DNA from: Vibrio furnissii CIP 102972
Lineage (GTDB): Bacteria; Pseudomonadota; Gammaproteobacteria; Enterobacterales; Vibrionaceae
Direction of reading: 5' to 3'
Assembly: GCF_000176175.1 (NCBI RefSeq)
Contig: NZ_ACZP01000014.1
Span: 1,488,001-1,552,000, forward strand
DNA length: 64,000 bases
Below the pieces are notes generated by a model. The model had not been told where the DNA came from. It ran no database searches and saw only the letters and a program-made list of their open reading frames with translations. The position numbers were made by a program, and so were the translations under genes. Below are positions 40,318-49,642 of the stretch, piece by piece (position 1 is the first letter of the stretch; each line of letters starts with the position of its first letter).

Positions 40318-41694
40318 ATGTCTGCAGGATTAGTACAAGCGGCGTACATTGTTGCTGCTCTGTTTTTCATTTTGAGTTTGGCAGGTCTGTCGAAGCAGGA
40401 GTCTGCGAAGGCAGGTAACTATTACGGTATCGCGGGGATGACCATCGCGTTGCTGGCAACAATCTTCAGCCCTGGCGCTTCAGGCCTCGCGTGGATCATT
40501 CTGGCGATGGTGATTGGTGGCTCGATCGGGATGCATTTCGCGAAGAAAGTTGAAATGACCGAAATGCCAGAATTGGTCGCTATTCTTCACAGCTTTGTGG
40601 GGATGGCTGCGGTTTTGGTCGGTTACAACAGCTATCTGGATGCGCCAGAAGTGGCCACCCATGCTGAACATGTCATTCACCTTGTTGAAGTCTTTATCGG
40701 TGTGTTCATTGGTGCGGTGACGTTTACCGGTTCCATCGTGGCCTTCGGTAAACTGCGTGGCATCATCAAATCATCACCTTTGAATCTACCCCACAAGCAT
40801 AAGCTGAACCTTGCAGCGCTGGTGATCTCAGCCTTGTTGCTGACTCGCTTTGTGAACGCTGACGGCAGCATGTTTGCGCTGATCGTGATGACACTGATTG
40901 CGTTCGCGTTCGGTTACCACTTGGTGGCTTCAATCGGCGGTGCCGATATGCCAGTTGTGGTATCGATGCTGAACTCGTACTCAGGTTGGGCGGCCGCGGC
41001 AGCAGGCTTTATGCTGGCAAACGATCTTTTGATCGTGACCGGTGCGCTGGTTGGTTCTTCAGGTGCAATTCTGTCTTACATCATGTGTAAGGCGATGAAC
41101 CGTTCGTTCATTAGCGTGATCGCAGGTGGCTTTGGCCAAGAAGTTGTGATTAGTTCAGATGAAGAGCAGGGTGAACATCGCGAGATCAACGCTGAAGATG
41201 TGGCGGATATGCTGAAAAACTCGAAGTCTGTAATCATCACTCCGGGATACGGTATGGCGGTTGCACAGGCTCAGTACCCAGTCTTTGAGATCACCGAAAA
41301 ACTTCGTGCCATGGGTGTTGAAGTGCGATTTGGTATTCACCCGGTAGCGGGGCGTCTGCCTGGTCACATGAACGTACTGTTGGCGGAAGCGAAAGTGCCT
41401 TACGACATCGTATTGGAAATGGATGAGATCAACGATGATTTCTCAGACACCGATACCGTGTTGGTGATTGGCGCGAACGACACCGTGAACCCAGCGGCGC
41501 AAGAAGATCCGAACAGCCCAATCGCGGGGATGCCGGTTCTGGAAGTGTGGCACGCACAAAACGTTATCGTATTCAAACGTTCGATGAATACGGGTTACGC
41601 GGGTGTGCAAAACCCACTGTTCTTTAAAGAGAACACATACATGCTGTTTGGCGATGCGAAAGATAGTGTAGACGCCATTTCTAAAGCACTGTAA
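40318..41694 (+). CDS. pntB: NAD(P) transhydrogenase subunit beta
   Basis: A 458-residue partner of PntA. The N-terminal 265 residues contain about eight or nine membrane segments ([40 protein letters not shown]). The NADP-binding domain follows, with [36 protein letters not shown] and [25 protein letters not shown] precedes the ATG. A strong terminator follows the stop. Confidence 0.97.
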
Positions 41695-41713
41695 TCTCCG
41701 ATTCTCAAGACAC

Positions 41714-41740
41714 AAGAAGCCAGCATTTAGCTGGCTTCTT
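41714..41740 (+). terminator. Terminator of pntAB
   Basis: An 11-bp perfect stem AAGAAGCCAGC/GCTGGCTTCTT (41714-41724, 41730-41740) with an ATTTA loop, then TTATTATTC. Confidence 0.9.
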
Positions 41741-41824
41741 TATTATTCGATGATGCATTATTGACAGCAATATAACACGCCAAATGTATCTTTCTAAGAG
41801 AATACGTTATAGTTTTGTAACCCT

Positions 41825-43300
41825 ATGATCTGCCGAAGATTCAAATTGATTAAAGCGATACTCAGAACCCTAGCAGTTTTAGGGCTATTCACATCAACCT
41901 CATCTTATGCAGATTCGCTGCCTGAGCGCATCGATCTGTTTGTATCGCTATTTGACTACCAATCGGCCGTTGTATCGTACGACATTCGCGAAATCCAGAA
42001 TGACTACCCAACACGTCTTCTGACGCCCGATACCATGTTGCCGCAAACCTCCGCTTATCCATTAAAAGATATCCAGCAACTGTATAGCCTGGCTCAAACC
42101 TGTACCGGAAAACTACCGCTCAACCCACTGGTCACCGAACCGCTGGTTTTTACACGCGCCATCTGTAAAGGCACGCAGTTACCCATGCGTTGGTTTGCCC
42201 GCAGCGCGTTGATTCACCCTGGCGGTGGGACATACGCTTCGCGCTATGCGGAAGTCCACACCGACAAAACAAGCGACCTGCAACAATACATGCACATTCA
42301 GGAACGTCCGCAAGCCGAAACCAACACCTTATTGGGCCGTTTGCAGAGCATGAATGAAGACACGATGACAGCATTGATCGCCGGCGCCGTTATGTTTGGG
42401 GACGATACGGAACTTTGGCTGAGAAAAGGGGACGAATATTACGTTTTCGATGAAGAAACTTGGAATCGAAACGCCAGCAAAGCCGGATTATCGTTTAACA
42501 TAGTCACTTCAGACAGCACGTGCTTTGTGCAGCGCGGCAACATCTGTTGGGACATTGAAGATCATTCTGATTTGTTACGAATTAGTATGGTCGCATTGGT
42601 GATTGCCAACATACTTTTGGTATTTGGTTGGTCAATTTATCGTTGGAATTCAAAGCGTCAGGACATGAAGAGCCGCATGCTCATTCTGCAAATCCTTACG
42701 CATGAGCTACGCACACCGATCGCAAGCCTGTCGTTGACCGTCGAAGGCTTTCGTCGCGAATTTGAACATTTGCCTGAGTCTGTATACGATGAGTTCCGTA
42801 GACTGTGTGAAGATTCACGTCGATTAAGGCAATTGGCAGAGGCAAGTAAGGATTATTTGCAATCTGATAACAAACCTCTTGCAACAGACTGGGTTCCGTC
42901 CGTTGAAGAGTGGTTACAATACAAGGTTGAAGAGGAATTCGCCGAGCCGGTAGAACTCAAAATTAACGAAGACATTGCAGCCAAACTGAATGTCTACTGG
43001 CTGGGGACTTGTGTCGATAATTTAATACGCAACGCGGTCAAATATGGCGTTGCGCCCGTGACATTGGAAGTAATTACTAAATCTAACTCTGTCACAATCA
43101 AGGTTACGGACCAAGGAACGCTTACAAACAAGGATTGGCGTCATTTACGCAAGCCATTTGTCAGTAAAAGTGGCTTAGGACTTGGCTTAACTATAGTAGA
43201 ATCGATGGTCGGGCGAATGGGTGGAACAATGACCCTAATCGGACCGCCGACCACTTTTATATTGGAGATACCCTGTGAAACAGACATTGCTTCTCGTTGA
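41825..43300 (+). CDS. vxrA: Sensor histidine kinase VxrA
   Basis: A 491-residue kinase. The signal/first membrane segment is at about 10-30 (TLAVLGLFTSTSSYADS), a periplasmic sensor of about 220 residues (DUF3404 type) follows, then a second membrane segment (about 258-275, VALVIANILLVFGWSIYRWN). The H-box LTHELRTPIASLSLT holds His293; the ATPase part has NLIRNAVKYG and SGLGLGLTIVESMVGRMGG. VxrAB (also called WigKR) controls cell-wall stress and type VI secretion in V. cholerae. It overlaps vxrB by 26 bp. Placement directly after pntAB is the V. cholerae order as I recall it. Confidence 0.93.
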   Translation: MICRRFKLIKAILRTLAVLGLFTSTSSYADSLPERIDLFVSLFDYQSAVVSYDIREIQNDYPTRLLTPDTMLPQTSAYPLKDIQQLYSLAQTCTGKLPLNPLVTEPLVFTRAICKGTQLPMRWFARSALIHPGGGTYASRYAEVHTDKTSDLQQYMHIQERPQAETNTLLGRLQSMNEDTMTALIAGAVMFGDDTELWLRKGDEYYVFDEETWNRNASKAGLSFNIVTSDSTCFVQRGNICWDIEDHSDLLRISMVALVIANILLVFGWSIYRWNSKRQDMKSRMLILQILTHELRTPIASLSLTVEGFRREFEHLPESVYDEFRRLCEDSRRLRQLAEASKDYLQSDNKPLATDWVPSVEEWLQYKVEEEFAEPVELKINEDIAAKLNVYWLGTCVDNLIRNAVKYGVAPVTLEVITKSNSVTIKVTDQGTLTNKDWRHLRKPFVSKSGLGLGLTIVESMVGRMGGTMTLIGPPTTFILEIPCETDIASR

Positions 43301-43934
43301 AGATGATAAAAACCTAGCTGACGGACTTCTAGTTAGTTTGGAGCAAGCAGGATATGACTGTTTACATGCAGAGACGATTGCTGGTGTAAAGCAATATTGG
43401 GAAAAAGCCGACTTGGTGATTCTTGACCGTCAGTTACCTGATGGCGACTCAGTGCAGCACCTCGCGGATTGGAAAAAACTGAAAGACGTGCCAGTCATTT
43501 TGCTGACTGCGCTTGTCACCGTGAAAGATAAAGTGACCGGTTTAGATGCAGGCGCCAACGACTATCTAACAAAACCTTTTGCCGAAGCAGAATTATTTGC
43601 CCGCGTGCGCGCTCAGCTTCGTTCTCCTGAAAATGAAGATCAGGATGACAGCAAAGTCGTGACTGCGAATTTAACCATCGATAAAGCCACTCGCGAAGTG
43701 TTCTTTAATGGTGAATCGATCACGCTTACACGTACTGAATTCGACCTGCTGCTGTTTTTAGCAAGCAACCTTGGCCGCGTATTTACACGTGATGAACTGC
43801 TGGATCATGTGTGGGGTTACAACCATTTCCCAACCACACGTACCGTGGACACCCACGTTCTACAGCTACGCCAAAAACTACCAGGTTTAGAAATCGAAAC
43901 GCTGCGTGGTGTTGGCTACAAAATGAAAGCGTAA
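43275..43934 (+). CDS. vxrB: Response regulator VxrB (OmpR family)
   Basis: A 219-residue regulator. Receiver domain residues are LLVEDDKN (acidic pair), Asp51 in LVILDRQLPDGD, LLTALV and the Lys in DYLTKPF. The OmpR-type winged helix at the C-terminus has LTRTEFDLLLFLASNLGRVF, TRDELLDHVWGY and RTVDTHVLQLRQKL. It is translated in overlap with vxrA and lies 3 bp before vxrC. Confidence 0.95.
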   Translation: MKQTLLLVEDDKNLADGLLVSLEQAGYDCLHAETIAGVKQYWEKADLVILDRQLPDGDSVQHLADWKKLKDVPVILLTALVTVKDKVTGLDAGANDYLTKPFAEAELFARVRAQLRSPENEDQDDSKVVTANLTIDKATREVFFNGESITLTRTEFDLLLFLASNLGRVFTRDELLDHVWGYNHFPTTRTVDTHVLQLRQKLPGLEIETLRGVGYKMKA

Positions 43935-43937
43935 CGA

Positions 43938-44816
43938 ATGCGAATAACTGCGTTACTGATGGGCACGCTACTATGCGTGCCTCTTTCAGCACAAAGTGTG
44001 GAGTGGTTTGAGAACAACACACCGCTTACACAAGCTCATCAACATCTGCTCAACAACGATTTAGAGAGCATGTTTGCCTCTCTGGTTGAAGTGTGGCAGC
44101 TTGAACACAACAAAAATATCAAATCCCATCTGAATGATCTTCTCGTTCAGTCACTGACGGTCGATTGCGGTAAAGGGTTGGACAGCAAACCTTTTCCAGA
44201 ATGGATTAAATCGGTGTTGATTCGTCGTATCGACATTCAAAGTCCAGGTCGTGATGCTTACCAAGTTCTCATTGATACCAAAGCGAAGAAGGCGATTGCC
44301 GACATTCGTTTAACGCAATGGGTTGATAAACCACTGTCCAATGACAGTACGTTTACTCGCACTGACCGTGACAACGTCACAAGTCAAAACATCTCGTATC
44401 TCAAACGCTACAACCTCAATACCAAATTGAACATGGGTCTGTATCGTTTAGACATTACCGCCAACGACCAAGAATCGTGGAGCGCTTGGGTGATTTTTGG
44501 TGAACCCAAAGCAAAGCAAACCGTACGTTGGGCGTCGAAAGATCAGTGGGTGGTTGAAAAGAACGCACTGCTTAATCGTTTCTGTCCGTTGCCTAAATTG
44601 GGCGTGTCGGTTTTCGATTATGTGGATGGTAAATACAAAGAGATTTGGAATCAGAGCTACGAATCCGATTATCCAACCTCATTGGAACTGAACAATCTCC
44701 CTTCCGATCGTTATGTTTTAGCCGTCTCGATGACGCATCAACGGTGGCAAGGGCCCATCACAATTGAGCAATCTCAAGTTATCAGCAAAACATATGACGT
44801 TTCTCTAGAGGAATAG
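43938..44816 (+). CDS. vxrC: VxrC, periplasmic DUF2861-like protein
   Basis: A 292-residue exported protein with a signal peptide (RITALLMGTLLCVPLSAQSV). It has an N-terminal helical part and a beta-rich C-terminal half (ESWSAWVIFGEPKAKQTVRW; PLPKLGVSVFDYVDGKYKEI). I assign it to the DUF2861 family by its place between vxrB and vxrD. Its role in the Vxr pathway is accessory and not defined by sequence. Confidence 0.88.
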   Translation: MRITALLMGTLLCVPLSAQSVEWFENNTPLTQAHQHLLNNDLESMFASLVEVWQLEHNKNIKSHLNDLLVQSLTVDCGKGLDSKPFPEWIKSVLIRRIDIQSPGRDAYQVLIDTKAKKAIADIRLTQWVDKPLSNDSTFTRTDRDNVTSQNISYLKRYNLNTKLNMGLYRLDITANDQESWSAWVIFGEPKAKQTVRWASKDQWVVEKNALLNRFCPLPKLGVSVFDYVDGKYKEIWNQSYESDYPTSLELNNLPSDRYVLAVSMTHQRWQGPITIEQSQVISKTYDVSLEE

Positions 44817-44876
44817 CTAAAGATAATAGAGAATATGCCGCTATAAAACGAAACGGAACTTACGGTTTATATCGGC

Positions 44877-46049
44877 ATGAATAACAAACTCAAATTTCTT
44901 GCGCTGTCAGTCGCGATTGCCGCGCCCAGTGCCTTTGCAGCAAACTACGCCGTAGAAGCTCGCGGTGATGCCATGGGCGGCGTTGGTGTCGTCTCCGCCA
45001 ACTACCTCACAGCCCCATTTTATAACCCTGCAATCGTTGCCATTTACCGACGCAATGACGATGCAGGCATGATTCTTCCCAGTATCGGCTTTACCTACAA
45101 CGACCCAGATCAAATGGTCGATGGCATGGATAACATTTCCAGCATAATCGACAGTGGCGATCTCAACCGCGCTGGCGAATTGCAAACAGCCATGAACGAC
45201 GTCAGTGGTGACGTTCTTAGCGCCCATCTTGGTGGCGTTGTCGCATTTGGTATCCCAAACCGCTATCTTGCTATGAACATTTTTGGTAAGGCGTATACCG
45301 AATCTTTTGCCACCACGAACATCGCAGATTCCTGCCCGAGTTACACAGAAGGCTCGGATGAGTGTACCTTTGAGAAAGCGCAAAACAGTACTGTTAACGC
45401 AGTGTCCGTCGCCGTGACTGAAGTCGGGATCACGTTTGCGAAATACCAAACGTTCATGGGACAACACATATCCTTTGGTATCAGCCCGAAACTACAACGC
45501 ATCTATACCTACGTCTACGAAGCCAGCCTCAACGATTACGATATCAAAGATCTGCGCGAAAACAGCAATGGCGAAACCACGTTTAATATCGATGCCGGTG
45601 CACTTTGGTTCTACGGGCCGTTTCGTATCGGTGTGGCCGCGACCAACTTGATCAGCCGAGACATCGAAACGAAAAGCGTCGCGTCTAAAGTGTCAGGGAA
45701 TCCCAACCTACAATACGCTTATCAAATTCGTCCGCAATTTACAGTCGGTGCCGGTTTAGTTGCAGATTACGTCACTTTAAGTGTCGACTACGATATCAAT
45801 GAAGATCAACGCTACAAAAGTTTTGCCGACAATACACAAATGATTCGTGTTGGTGGCGAAATCGATTTGATGCGCCAACTGAAACTGCGGGCAGGGTATT
45901 ATAAAAACTTAGCCTATAGCGGTAGTGAAGGGACGGTTACGGCCGGTGTGGGGATCTCGCCACTGAACCTGTTCCAATTGGATATTGGTGCCAGCTACAC
46001 CAACGAAGATGCCATGGGCGGTTTCATAAACTTCCTTGCGAGTTACTAA
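44877..46049 (+). CDS. vxrD: VxrD, outer-membrane TraF-like (PF13729) protein
   Basis: A 390-residue protein with a signal peptide ([16 protein letters not shown]). The mature part starts [20 protein letters not shown] and the C-terminal half is a beta-barrel-like repeat of amphipathic strands ([38 protein letters not shown]) ending in an aromatic residue (NFLASY). It belongs to the conjugal-transfer-TraF-like outer-membrane family. It starts 60 bp after vxrC. Confidence 0.9.
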
Positions 46050-46066
46050 ACGAACCACTATAGTTG

Positions 46067-46092
46067 GGCTCCTTAAACAAGGAGCCTTTTTT
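46067..46092 (+). terminator. Terminator/attenuator hairpin that contains the vxrE ribosome binding site
   Basis: An 8-bp perfect stem GGCTCCTT/AAGGAGCC (46067-46074, 46079-46086), AAAC loop, then six T residues (46087-46092) directly followed by the ATG of vxrE. The right arm is itself the AAGGAG ribosome site. The element both looks like a Rho-independent terminator after vxrD and would hide the ribosome site of vxrE when folded. Confidence 0.85.
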
Positions 46093-46251
46093 ATGTTTGA
46101 TGATTTACCCACGCTATCACACGCCGAGCAACAAGCTGCGGTTGAAAAGATTCAGGCCCTGATGTCGCAAGGCATAAGCACCGCAGAAGCAATCAAAATC
46201 ATTGCTCAGGAAATACGACAACAACAAGCAGAGCAACAAACCAAAGAATAG
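46093..46251 (+). CDS. vxrE: VxrE, YoaH-type (UPF0181) small protein
   Basis: A 52-residue cytosolic protein: [20 protein letters not shown], then [20 protein letters not shown] and a Gln-rich end. This is the YoaH/UPF0181 family. The ATG at 46093 directly follows the U-tract of a terminator hairpin whose right arm is the ribosome site, so it is read only by transcripts that pass the hairpin, and translated only when the hairpin is open. Confidence 0.9.
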
Positions 46252-46275
46252 GGCACGTCAGTGCTCTTTTTTTTT
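46251..46275 (+). terminator. Terminator after vxrE
   Basis: Short stem GGGCAC/GTGCTC (46251-46256, 46261-46266, one G-T pair) with a GTCA loop and nine T residues. It starts at the last base of the vxrE stop codon. Confidence 0.75.
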
Positions 46276-46844
46276 GCCTTTCATTTAGACTTACAACTCC
46301 AGCCCCACCCCTAGAAATTACCCACAAAATACTGTTTAAAGATAAATAAAACATTTAAAACAATGAGTTAATGCAGAATAAAACACTACATTAGGTTCGA
46401 TTTTACTTGTTGATGTAATTTTATTACACGTCAAATTACACACCCAAATGGTGCCAGTTTATTATTCTGTCACGTTACGGTGTGATTACTTACTGTTGCC
46501 ATATCTGCTGTAGTTACTTGTATTGAATTGAACACCAGAGAAATAGCAGCCAATCCAACCGCCAATCGAAAGGCACAACATCAAGATTTGATTTGGTTCC
46601 GAACAACAGCGCCATACAGCACAAAATATATGAGGTAACTCCTAGTGACGTTGTCACTCAAATAAACGGTGTGGATGTAGATCGAGAAGGTTTGAAATCG
46701 AACGAGTGTCTGTCTCAGAGTACGCAATCTGAGGGTTAGCAATAAAAAACACAGTAACTTGCGCCATAAACCGGGAAAAGATCGCGGTCTAACTTAGCGC
46801 GACGCCGTAAAGTGGCTTGTTGAGAAATGACAAGAGGAAAGTCA
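46276..46844. other. Poorly coding gap with PDZ-like relic
   Basis: About 570 bp between vxrE and the orphan secreted protein. The first 230 bp are very AT-rich. At 46575-46739 a frame without a start codon encodes 54 residues (see the separate entry). Nothing else was recognised. Confidence 0.6.
46575..46739 (+). pseudogene. Possible PDZ-like gene relic
   Basis: An open frame of 54 residues with no usable start, containing LVPNNSAI and PSDVVTQINGVDVDREGL. The pattern resembles the PDZ carboxylate loop and the GDxIxxINGxxVxxxxxL strand of trypsin-like protease or secretion PDZ domains, with the middle altered. It stops at TAG (46737). It may be a decayed fragment; chance cannot be excluded. 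Confidence 0.25.
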
Positions 46845-47462
46845 GTGAAATTTGTATCTATGGGCTTTGGTTTATGTGCAGCGCTGATCTCAATCAGTTC
46901 CCATGCTTCATTTCAGAAGAACGAATACTTCGATTCAATGTACAACAAGAACGTCTATGAACGTTACGTAACTAGCGGTGGTAATCACTTAGGTTTTCGA
47001 TGTGATTCTGATACCTACAAGCGCACCATGTACCTGACATTTGGATCGCAGAACGCTATCGGTTCACCGAACCAAGAAATGAAATTGCGTATTAAGATTG
47101 ATGGCGGGAACATTTACGATCTTGATGGCCGAATGTACTCATCAAGTTATGAAAGTGGAGTCGTCGAAAACTATCCTAAAGAGCTGCTTTACGCGATCAA
47201 GCAAGGTCGCACAGCCCATTTAGAGGTATACAGCTATAACGCTAGAAAGATTCGCGCATCATTCAACTTATCAGGTTCAAGCAACGCGGTGAACGATGTT
47301 AGCAGCCGTTGTGATATAACTTTTCAAGCTGACCCTTACACCAATTACAACGCAGAAATCATGCGTTTACAACAAGAGAGAGACCATAAGATTTATTTGC
47401 TAGAGCAAGAGTATGCGAAGAAGATTGCTGAGATTCGCTCAAAAGCCTATGGAAGATATTGA
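46845..47462 (+). CDS. Orphan secreted protein with C-terminal coiled coil
   Basis: About 205 residues. A GTG at 46845 has AGAGGAAA ahead and begins the signal peptide (KFVSMGFGLCAALISISSHA); the ATG at 46827 has no ribosome site and is less likely. The mature domain has two Cys (FRCDSDTYKR and SSRCDITF), probably a disulfide, in a beta-rich region. The last 40 residues form a charged helix (MRLQQERDHKIYLLEQEYAK). I do not recognise a family. It is flanked by poorly coding sequence, unlike the dense gene order around it. Confidence 0.75.
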   Translation: MKFVSMGFGLCAALISISSHASFQKNEYFDSMYNKNVYERYVTSGGNHLGFRCDSDTYKRTMYLTFGSQNAIGSPNQEMKLRIKIDGGNIYDLDGRMYSSSYESGVVENYPKELLYAIKQGRTAHLEVYSYNARKIRASFNLSGSSNAVNDVSSRCDITFQADPYTNYNAEIMRLQQERDHKIYLLEQEYAKKIAEIRSKAYGRY

Positions 47463-47563
47463 CACACTGGGCGATCTTTCCGTTTCATACCTGATTTATT
47501 TGAGACGCGATGCGTAGCTGATACTCATCGTTTTAATCATGTTAAGGATTCACAATCGTGTGA

Positions 47564-47725
47564 AGCATTCGAGTTGACCGCAACGATAATCCGTCTATAA
47601 AAGCGCTATGGGAAAGCATCGGGCTGGGATTGCAAGGAATATCAATGGCTGCGGGCAGCTTAGCTCTATACGCGACCGAGGTTAAAGCGTCACTATTACA
47701 GTGCGCATTATGTACGTTATGTTAA
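47564..47725 (+). pseudogene. Protein-like open frame without start codon
   Basis: After an in-frame TGA, 53 codons encode NDNPSIKALWESIGLGLQG, then ISMAAGSLALYATEVKASLL and a Cys-rich end. The upstream half looks like real protein but has no start; an internal ATG at 47644 with AAGGAA six bases ahead could give a 26-residue peptide. A decayed gene tail or a small protein are both possible. Confidence 0.25.
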
Positions 47726-47741
47726 ATTGAGTTCACTAATA

Positions 47742-47769
47742 AGAAGAGCACGTTCTTTGGTGCTCTTCT
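47742..47769 (+). terminator. Stem-loop, probable terminator
   Basis: A 10-bp perfect stem AGAAGAGCAC/GTGCTCTTCT (47742-47751, 47760-47769) with an 8-nt loop; the tail (CTGCTGTGTTTGG) is only moderately T-rich. Confidence 0.5.
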
Positions 47770-47877
47770 CTGCTGTGTTTGGTTTGTTTGGTTATCTAGC
47801 GATGACATTCAACATAACTGGATTTACCATAAAATAGCTAATAACTACTTTGCTATCTAACGATATCAACCTGGTTA

Positions 47878-48189
47878 TTAGCCACCAGCCAGTTTGACTT
47901 TAAAGCCTTTCTTTTCCAGTAACGCTTTAATTTTTTCTCTCATGTCGCCTTGGATTTCAATTTCGCCATCTTTAACGGAACCGCCACAACCACACACTTT
48001 TTTCAGTTCTGCAGCAAGCAGCTTTAACGGCGCATCATCTAAGTCTAATCCCTTAACGATGCAAACGCCTTTGCCTTTACGTCCTTTGGTTTCTTTGTGG
48101 ATACGGACAATGCCGTCGCCTTTAGGACGCTCAATTTTCTCAGGTTCCTGTTTAATTCGGCCGACTTCTGTCGAATATACAAGTGTCAT
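47878..48189 (-). CDS. yciH: SUI1/eIF1-like translation factor YciH
   Basis: A 103-residue protein of the SUI1 fold. Landmarks are VRIHKETKGRKGKGVCIVKG, LDLDDAPLKLLAAELKKVCG, CGGSVKDGEIEIQGD and a Lys-rich C-terminal helix KIKALLEKKGFKVKLAGG. Bacterial YciH is proposed to influence start-site selection under stress. It lies 8 bp after the DUF3319-like gene and is its likely operon partner. Confidence 0.93.
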   Translation of the reverse strand: MTLVYSTEVGRIKQEPEKIERPKGDGIVRIHKETKGRKGKGVCIVKGLDLDDAPLKLLAAELKKVCGCGGSVKDGEIEIQGDMREKIKALLEKKGFKVKLAGG

Positions 48190-48197
48190 GATTTCTA

Positions 48198-48578
48198 CTA
48201 CTTCTTCTGTTGTGCTTCCGCTCGCTGTTTTGCGAGTAAGAAAGCTTCGATATGTTTTTGAATAGCAACTTTAGAACCTTTGATTAAGCGGCCATTAAAA
48301 AAACAATACCATCCGTTTGCTTCACCGGTGTCGTTCTTTATCGTGAACCCGTTGAAGTTTTCGTGTGCGCCCGCAGCGACTTCGCGTTTACGGCCCACCG
48401 ACTCGAATTCTCTCGGGTCGATAATCGATGCCGTGTCACACCACCAATCAATGCTTTTCTTTACGGCGGCTAAGTTGCCCGTTAACACATGGTTCTTGAT
48501 CTGAACTTGCCACACTTCGTTAGAATTTGGCGCAGATTTAAGGGTAAACCCTCGATAAGTAGCTAAAGCCATACGCAT
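48198..48578 (-). CDS. DUF3319-like small protein
   Basis: A 126-residue cytosolic protein made of two similar halves. Each has a G(F)T(I/L)K motif: ATYRGFTLKSAPNSNEVWQV and NFNGFTIKNDTGEANGWYCF, each followed by a helix (TGNLAAVKKSIDWWCD; IKGSKVAIQKHIEAFLL). This internal duplication supports a real gene. I place it in DUF3319, a family I know from Vibrio. The function is unknown. Co-directional with yciH. Confidence 0.8.
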   Translation of the reverse strand: MRMALATYRGFTLKSAPNSNEVWQVQIKNHVLTGNLAAVKKSIDWWCDTASIIDPREFESVGRKREVAAGAHENFNGFTIKNDTGEANGWYCFFNGRLIKGSKVAIQKHIEAFLLAKQRAEAQQKK

Positions 48579-48673
48579 CTGGTTCTTCTAGTTGCAGTTA
48601 CCTAAATAATAATTGTATATCCTGTGTTAGCAAGTATATTTATCACTAAAACCGTAAGTTATAGTGCGCTAGG

Positions 48674-49642
48674 ATGAAAAAAAACCTTACTATCATCACA
48701 GATCAAAGTATTTTAAAACATAAGCTTAATGAGTTTGATCGTCTTGTCACTCTAGAGCAAGTTGATCAGCTCACGCAGCATCAGTACACTCGAAACTCGC
48801 TGCTAGCCTTCACAAAAGATTGGAATCTGTTCCTCAATTTCTGTCAATTACGCACCGTGCGTGCGTTGCCTGCGTCGGTCACCGCCGTCAGACAGTTTCT
48901 TGAACATGAGGCTCGTTCAAGAAAATTCAGCACATTAAAACGTTACGCGGTCACTATTAGTTTAATCCATACCCTACTCAACCAACGCGATCCAACCGCT
49001 AACAGCCAAGTGCGTACCGCCCTTCAACAATTACGGTTAGACAAATATGGCGATGCCACTCAAGCCTCGAGCTTTGAATCTCATCATCTTCATCAGCTGT
49101 TTGAACAATTGAAGAACAAGCAGTCGCCCAAGCCGGTGCGCGATCTCGCCATTTATCATGTGATGTTCGAATGCGCGCTCAAACGTGCGGAGCTGAAAGC
49201 GCTGCACGTTCATCAACTTGTCATCAATGAGAGTAACGAAGAACAATACTCGCTGACGCTTGCTGATTCACGCTATGTGTTATCGTTGCAAGCGAGCCGA
49301 TGTATCACAAAATGGTTGAATTGCATTGGGGAACACGATGGTGTGCTATTTCGCGCCATCGACCGTCACGGAAACGTGTCTTCATCGGCGTTGGATGATT
49401 CGTCAATTTTTCGAATCTTACGCAATGCCGGCGCTTATTTGGGAGATGAAACGCTGAAGTTTTCCGGACAATCAACACGAATTGGCGCCGCGAAAGAGTT
49501 GGCCAAACAAGGCTACAAAGCGAAAGATATACAGGCGTTTGGGCGTTGGCTCAGCCCCGCAATGCCTTATCAATACATGGGTAATGACCACACTGCGGAG
49601 CGAGAGAAGCTAAAATTTGTGAAATTTAAGCCTTGGGAGTAA
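48674..49642 (+). CDS. Cre-like tyrosine recombinase with altered active site
   Basis: A 322-residue protein. The N-terminal SAM-like core-binding part (about 20-110, FTKDWNLFLNFCQLRTVRAL) is followed by a catalytic domain close to phage P1 Cre: FSGQSTRIGAAKELAKQG matches FSGHSARVGAA-type sequence, with Arg171, Arg269, Trp292 and nucleophile Tyr301 in place. Gln266 stands where the catalytic His of the HxxR box should be. No attachment sites, cargo or tRNA are seen nearby; the gene ends inside the tail of ddl by 17 bp (convergent). It may be a domesticated or impaired recombinase. Confidence 0.82.
   Translation: MKKNLTIITDQSILKHKLNEFDRLVTLEQVDQLTQHQYTRNSLLAFTKDWNLFLNFCQLRTVRALPASVTAVRQFLEHEARSRKFSTLKRYAVTISLIHTLLNQRDPTANSQVRTALQQLRLDKYGDATQASSFESHHLHQLFEQLKNKQSPKPVRDLAIYHVMFECALKRAELKALHVHQLVINESNEEQYSLTLADSRYVLSLQASRCITKWLNCIGEHDGVLFRAIDRHGNVSSSALDDSSIFRILRNAGAYLGDETLKFSGQSTRIGAAKELAKQGYKAKDIQAFGRWLSPAMPYQYMGNDHTAEREKLKFVKFKPWE

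Follow-up and report, generated by a model that had tools for sequence, protein, structure and literature searches.

The leader of vxrE in Vibrio furnissii combines a promoter-like sequence with a hairpin immediately behind vxrD, and this element probably acts as a dual-transcript insulator that sets vxrE apart from the vxrABCD operon. An mRNA that reads through from vxrD holds both arms of the inverted repeat, so that the hairpin would form; where a T-tract is present it should terminate the incoming transcription, and transcripts that pass the terminator would carry a closed Shine-Dalgarno (SD) sequence. The transcript from vxrE's own promoter would start within the 5' arm or the loop and hence lack the 5' arm; on this short mRNA the AAGGAG would be free and vxrE would be translated. 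It would thus be vxrE's own promoter, rather than transcription of the operon, that sets the output of the gene. From sequence comparisons and predicted folds we infer that the promoter is active, where its transcript starts, that the long transcript is terminated and that the two transcripts are translated differently. The features lie as follows in the window, that is, the whole stretch of 64,000 nucleotides that was analysed:

44877..46049, plus strand: vxrD (TraF_2-type), whose last codons contain the -35 box; putative source of read-through transcripts
46036..46041, plus strand: -35 box TTGCGA of the predicted vxrE promoter, from the promoter scan, in the last codons of vxrD
46059..46064, plus strand: -10 box TATAGT of the predicted vxrE promoter, from the promoter scan, conserved in Vibrio
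46067..46074, plus strand: 5' arm of the hairpin, GGCTCCTT, at the discriminator position of the promoter
46071..46075, plus strand: predicted vxrE mRNA start, 7-11 nt past the -10 box, placed by spacing and pyrimidine-purine steps
46075..46078, plus strand: loop AAAC, from the sequence
46079..46086, plus strand: 3' arm, AAGGAGCC, with AAGGAG at 46079-46084 as the SD site of vxrE
46087..46092, plus strand: T-tract TTTTTT of the terminator-like element, touching the vxrE start codon
46093..46251, plus strand: vxrE, 52 aa, UPF0181 (PF03701; Pfam match E 1.7e-24)
46250..46276, plus strand: a further hairpin of terminator-like form with a long T-run; it overlaps the stop codon of vxrE

UPF0181 we take to be the YoaH family. 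The genes are arrayed as vxrA-B-C-D-E and encode a DUF3404 kinase, an OmpR-type regulator and DUF2861, TraF_2 and UPF0181 proteins; the vxr names follow the earlier note on this DNA and PMC4441509. An in-frame TTG further upstream (ORF 46036-46251) was rejected as the start of vxrE, given that the Pfam match begins at the ATG at 46093 and the SD sequence fits that ATG. Two terminator-like hairpins bracket the gene (46067-46092 and 46250-46276).

Read directly from the sequence, the hairpin at 46067-46092 is GGCTCCTT-AAAC-AAGGAGCC-TTTTTT, followed by ATG at 46093-46095, which agrees to the base with the sequence and position given in the earlier note; also as claimed there, its stem overlaps the AAGGAG of vxrE. 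The hairpin begins 17 nt 3' of the vxrD stop codon, and the AAGGAG ends 8 nt 5' of the ATG. With the wobble pair G46066-T46087 included the stem has 9 pairs, and the fold of 46066-46092 reaches -13.9 kcal/mol (z -3.47), a value as low being found in 2 of 200 shuffles. A GC-rich stem-loop followed by a T-tract, the sequence signature from which an intrinsic terminator is predicted, is present, so that in this window the hairpin is both terminator-like and SD-covering. On its own a hairpin with a T-run is commonplace: the stretch 40500-49000 holds 10, where shuffles give 8.4, and the 64-kb window has perfect 8-bp stems with T-rich tails at several further places. Stems that overlap an SD sequence are rarer: among the 43 window ORFs that have an SD-like site and a length of 120 codons or more, a set for which vxrE itself is too short, 4 reach a score of at least 15 and none a score of at least 18, and vxrE's own stem scores 21.5. 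In a FourU RNA thermometer a run of four U pairs with the SD sequence; this candidate was set aside, as the arm opposite AAGGAG is CTCCTT, which holds no U-run. The Rfam search placed no family over the hairpin, its best matches lying elsewhere (E 0.44).

Comparison across the genus lends the element a conserved promoter-like sequence, a covarying hairpin predicted to hide the SD sequence, a fixed spacing between the two, and a presence that depends on gene context. Among the 148 Vibrio genomes searched, 137 have UPF0181 above the cut-off, and these together with 9 further Vibrio gave the 146 sites that were read; G026 (under the family cut-off), a second copy in G070 and L002 (a duplicate of the window site) were excluded before counting. 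Upstream of vxrE lies vxrD at 128 sites, vxrC without vxrD at 17, and neither at 1. At thresholds of at least 8 for the -10 weight matrix and at least 15 for the SD-overlapping stem, the 128 sites with vxrD upstream include 116 with a -10 box, 122 with the stem, 111 with both and 110 with both at the fixed spacing; the stem is missing in 6 and a -10 box of score 8 in 12. A narrower test, confined to stems between the -10 box and the ATG, gave a score of at least 15 at 116 of 122 sites, against 11% of shuffled segments, and 106 of the 122 outscored all 20 of their own shuffles. The earlier note had held that its reading falls if the hairpin is not conserved; the pairing is kept in other Vibrio vxr loci (122/128), with the compensatory changes described below.

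Directly 5' of the hairpin, and absent from the earlier note, lies the sigma70-like promoter TTGCGA-17-TATAGT (46036-46064). The 5' arm fills the gap between its -10 box and the predicted start; the latter would lie in the arm or the loop. A simple promoter scan is no richer than shuffles (8 found, 13.5 expected), and since promoter-like matches are no commoner than in shuffles, the case for the promoter lies in conservation and not in its match to the consensus. The exact TATAGT recurs at 107 of the 122 Vibrio sites with vxrD upstream, and TTGCTA, TTGCGA or TTGCCA at a 17-bp spacer at 68 of them. The vxrD stop codon and the -10 box are 0-86 nt apart, or 251 nt in a single outlier. From the -10 box to the first loop base there are 7-13 nt (mode 10) at 110 of 128 sites, and this tight distance puts the 5' arm where the discriminator sits.

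The promoter bears directly on the main reading of the earlier note, according to which vxrE could be expressed by read-through from the operon, with temperature, antitermination, a trailing ribosome or an sRNA as possible ways to open the hairpin; on that account no separate promoter would matter. Such an account fits a hairpin that in the window is terminator-like and SD-covering. It also fits V. cholerae, where RT-PCR and RNA-seq detected RNA across the vxrD-vxrE junction and the five genes are described as co-transcribed in the available text of PMC4441509, the abstract of which nevertheless names a four-gene operon; the junction RNA agrees with read-through but is silent on translation. 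It is harder to reconcile with a TATAGT that stands at 107 of 122 sites and at a fixed distance from the loop, with a stem as stable as -13.9 kcal/mol, and with the retention of TATAGT where vxrD is not directly upstream. This is the case in L058 and L074, where vxrC is followed by a gap of about 120 nt (with a 6-bp stem in L074), and in L056, which has neither vxrC nor vxrD upstream and a stem score of just 13. Read-through with opening of the hairpin is therefore unlikely to be the principal mode of vxrE expression, and the conserved promoter and a predicted mRNA start in the 5' arm or loop move us away from it: an mRNA that starts there cannot form the trap, and so no opening signal would be needed.

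Where exactly the vxrE mRNA begins is thus of consequence for the insulator. Pyrimidine-purine steps are favoured transcription starts, and with sigma70 transcripts usually begin some 6 nt or more past the -10 box. At the 110 sites such steps cluster 9 and 10 nt past the -10 box (39 and 48 sites), close to where the loop begins; the window has such a step 11 nt past it, at 46075. The predicted cost of freeing the SD sequence was calculated for 116 of the 122 sites, the 6 without a recognisable SD 4-mer being left out. In RNA arriving from vxrD the median is 12.9 kcal/mol, which by the predicted fold places the SD sequence in a stable stem in the upstream-initiated transcript, as in hairpins of the T4 type. 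For starts 7, 8, 9 and 10 nt past the -10 box the medians drop to 3.0, 2.7, 2.6 and 2.5 kcal/mol, and with a start at 8 the cost is lower by at least 3 kcal/mol at 108 of the 116 sites. The window follows suit, with 9.6 kcal/mol in the read-through RNA and 2.9, 2.6, 2.4 and 1.6 kcal/mol for starts at 7, 8, 9 and 10. Closer to the -10 box the median cost rises steeply, from 3.0 kcal/mol at offset 7 through 3.8 (6), 5.3 (5), 6.9 (4), 9.9 (3) and 11.6 (2) to 11.8 (1). Because it is high at offsets 1-3, the insulator reading depends on the mRNA starting some 6 nt or more past the -10 box.

If, on the other hand, the vxrE promoter fires and RNA synthesis starts 1-3 nt past the -10 box, the mRNA would open with the full hairpin, which would then be a 5'-terminal riboregulator or stability element. 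G residues 2-3 nt past the box are possible starts, and such starts would keep the SD sequence closed (medians of 11.8 to 9.9 kcal/mol). This spacing is, however, unusually short for sigma70, and the pyrimidine-purine steps gather 9-10 nt past the box (39 and 48 of 110), which makes an early start quite unlikely. A promoter function could also account for part of the conservation of the 5' arm by way of its G residues, and a G at -5 is described in the accessible text of PMC10911233 as prolonging the life of the open complex; this would leave the covariation of the stem unexplained.

The earlier note had further described the hairpin as a good terminator after vxrD. The description holds in the window, where the element is terminator-like, but does not extend to the genus: a T-tract (5 or more T among the 9 nt preceding the ATG) is found at just 72 of the 128 sites and missing from 56, and in V. 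splendidus (L253) its place is taken by AAGGAGCAGAGC-ATG. A tree of vxrD C-termini requires a minimum of 12 changes for the T-tract and of 6 for the SD hairpin (missing in 6 of 128 rows). The predicted terminator half of the element is thus not general across Vibrio. This imbalance also weighs against the idea that the hairpin is an ordinary vxrABCD terminator which overlaps the SD sequence by accident and has no regulatory meaning for vxrE. In favour of that idea, species without vxrE carry a strong terminator-like stem at the same place. Ten of the 15 Vibrio without a UPF0181 match were sampled; all ten have vxrC, nine have vxrD within the analysed stretch, and all nine of the latter have a strong stem after vxrD (score 24-29.5), with no -10 box of score 8 and no ORF of at least 30 codons starting just past the stem. 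Against it, where vxrE is present the SD-overlapping stem (122/128) is kept far more often than the T-tract (72/128), and the -10 box is coupled to the stem at 110 sites, so that an accidental overlap is very improbable. In the vxrE-less genomes L308-L313 the terminator-like stem after vxrD, which reads AGCTCTCTCTGAAA(A)GAGGGGGCT in five of the six, resembles the vxrE element in a decayed form.

The element changes with gene order. Where vxrE directly follows vxrC, in 15 Vibrio and 10 genomes of the genus g11, no -10 box is found (0/25) and an SD-overlapping stem of at least 15 occurs once (L098, score 15.5); sites with vxrC upstream and a recognisable SD sequence (15/21, all genera) have a median SD cost of 1.5 kcal/mol. 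In V. ulleungensis (L242) and Vibrio sp. qd031 (L246) vxrE lies away from vxrC and vxrD and TATAGT is kept, and the V. ulleungensis leader is nearly the same as that of L056. The upstream neighbour of vxrE in V. ulleungensis is a divergent gene, read as cupin-like. The pattern, then, is of an element after vxrD, none in the vxrC fusion (save for the L098 stem), a hairpin weakened behind a divergent neighbour, and a plain terminator without vxrE. As far as sequence can tell, the stem after vxrD is simply terminator-like where vxrE is lacking, and is joined to a promoter and a ribosome site where vxrE follows.

Beyond Vibrio, an SD-overlapping stem of at least 15 is present in 7 of the 12 genomes with vxrD upstream, and in L164 the stem CGCGACTTC...GAGGTCGCG comes immediately after TAGAAT. 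The Vibrio -10 matrix finds no match in any of the 12, and their -10 boxes were chosen by the general consensus. The UPF0181 gene of g8 comes with a promoter-like sequence and lacks a hairpin of this kind, though the upstream gene can be co-directional (L146); insulation is therefore not universal. In L170, L171 and L174 (g10), at most 90 nt from the UPF0181 start, a -10-like TAAAAT appears by eye to sit in the loop of a GC-rich inverted repeat with a T-run. The g10 arrangement, with a promoter inside a terminator loop, is possibly another route to the same end.

Covariation indicates what the stem is kept for. Across the 70 sites of a model-guided alignment both partners vary in 5 of 7 pairs, with 28 double-changed cells against 5.1 in shuffles (0/500 shuffles) and a covariation score of 0.204 against 0.104 (0/500 shuffles); further pair types are weakly above chance (10 against 8.0, 9/500 shuffles). 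With the partner shifted by 1-3 columns, 0-5 double-changed cells remain. This alignment holds 70 of 72 sources, picked from 100 as the better full-length matches, and so leans towards structure, with V. splendidus-type sites mostly missing from it; a first model alignment was discarded for containing opposite-strand matches. An independent, alignment-free check swapped the 5' and 3' halves of the hairpin between species. Over 96 distinct sites the hairpins' own pairing score is 19.3 against 14.9 when swapped, and over 35 arm-class representatives 17.2 against 12.1 (sd 0.47), with none of 20000 permutations as high. On the vxrD tree the outermost pair has undergone at least 11 state changes, unpaired states counted, and the fourth pair has switched between U-A and C-G at least 3 times. 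Judged by these changes, the stem is selected as RNA. A chance overlap of terminator and SD sequence is rejected on the genus-wide conservation together with the covariation. We also reject, as extremely improbable, the reading of the inverted repeat as a DNA operator that a repressor binds at the -10/+1 region: the palindrome does sit over the predicted start, but both its arms and the length of its loop differ greatly between sites, with compensation, a variation incompatible with an operator of fixed geometry.

Within the V. furnissii genome the element appears to stand alone. The string AAGGAG-T5-ATG occurs 4 times against once in the reversed control, and at the other 3 sites the frame stays open for 26, 2 and 5 codons past the ATG. 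A look-alike without a gene, L005 (G000:C19:46982-46999), has the near-perfect palindrome GCTCCTTAAGGAGC, a T-run and an ATG with 5 open codons. GGCTCC-N-GGAGCC is found at 9 places, and TATANT-N-CTCC-N-GGAG at 2 including the vxrE site, against 3 in the reversed control. A model search of the genome gave the vxrE site at E 2.5e-4 and the next match at E 2.1. No convincing second copy emerged from these searches, which detect close look-alikes and would miss fold-back promoters with other arms.

A broader proposition seems to us evenly poised: that some 60 bp in a bacterial core locus act as promoter, discriminator, SD trap embedded in the start site, and terminator, freeing a gene from its operon in a manner that varies with gene order. 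If the insulator reading is true, vxrE belongs to the operon at the level of RNA without adding to the protein that the operon yields; VxrE should then not increase on induction of the operon, and the phenotypes of vxrE are to be interpreted separately. The description of vxrABCDE as one operon in PMC4441509 draws, in its available text, on RT-PCR and RNA-seq, and if such designs are common, genes that RNA-seq counts in a polycistronic mRNA may be silent on it. According to the accessible portions of two reports, type VI secretion is unchanged by deletion of vxrC, D or E (PMC10268840), and a table lists V. cholerae vxrE insertions among those depleted under tobramycin at 50% MIC, vxrE being the sole vxr gene in the part of that table that was examined (PMC6606805). 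These results fit, if weakly, a role for vxrE separate from the operon. A Salmonella screen (PMC12767474) may concern yoaH. The locus offers a genus-wide natural experiment on how a gene is insulated inside an operon, and the insulator reading makes the sharp prediction that the vxrE mRNA has its 5' end in the arm or the loop.

In the literature, judged mostly by title and the start of the abstract, no prior case of such a design at a chromosomal core gene was found, which is not proof of absence. The closest relatives in logic are in bacteriophage T4, where gene e (lysozyme), soc, 49 and I-TevI have hairpins with a promoter inside (PMC3014915, PMC2988022) and I-TevI, segB and mobE are of like design (PMC2988022), as far as the accessible text of these papers goes. 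There, as is proposed for vxrE, long transcripts fold a hairpin over the SD sequence, and transcripts from a promoter just 5' of the ribosome site lack the 5' portion of the hairpin and are translated. Unlike gene e, vxrE belongs to a bacterial core locus with a sigma70-like and not a phage late promoter, and its stem also bears a T-tract at 72 of 128 sites; no homology is claimed. With an ordinary intrinsic terminator the vxrE hairpin shares the GC-rich stem, a 4-nt loop and six T, but its right arm is the SD sequence, its tail touches the start codon, its 5' arm lies in a promoter and the T-tract is missing at 56 of 128 sites. Fold-back inhibition in IS10 gives a similar protection from outside transcripts. 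In IS200, outside transcripts are terminated and barred from translation by stem-loops at the start of the gene, one terminating impinging transcripts and another occluding the ribosome site (PMC3196728, in its available text). The IS200 arrangement consists of two separate stem-loops at a transposase gene, whereas vxrE, a chromosomal UPF0181 gene, has one stem that would do both tasks, and does not fall within the IS200 type. What differs from these known designs is that a single stem would serve as the trap and, in about half of the species, as the terminator, in combination with a sigma70-like promoter and at a bacterial core locus.
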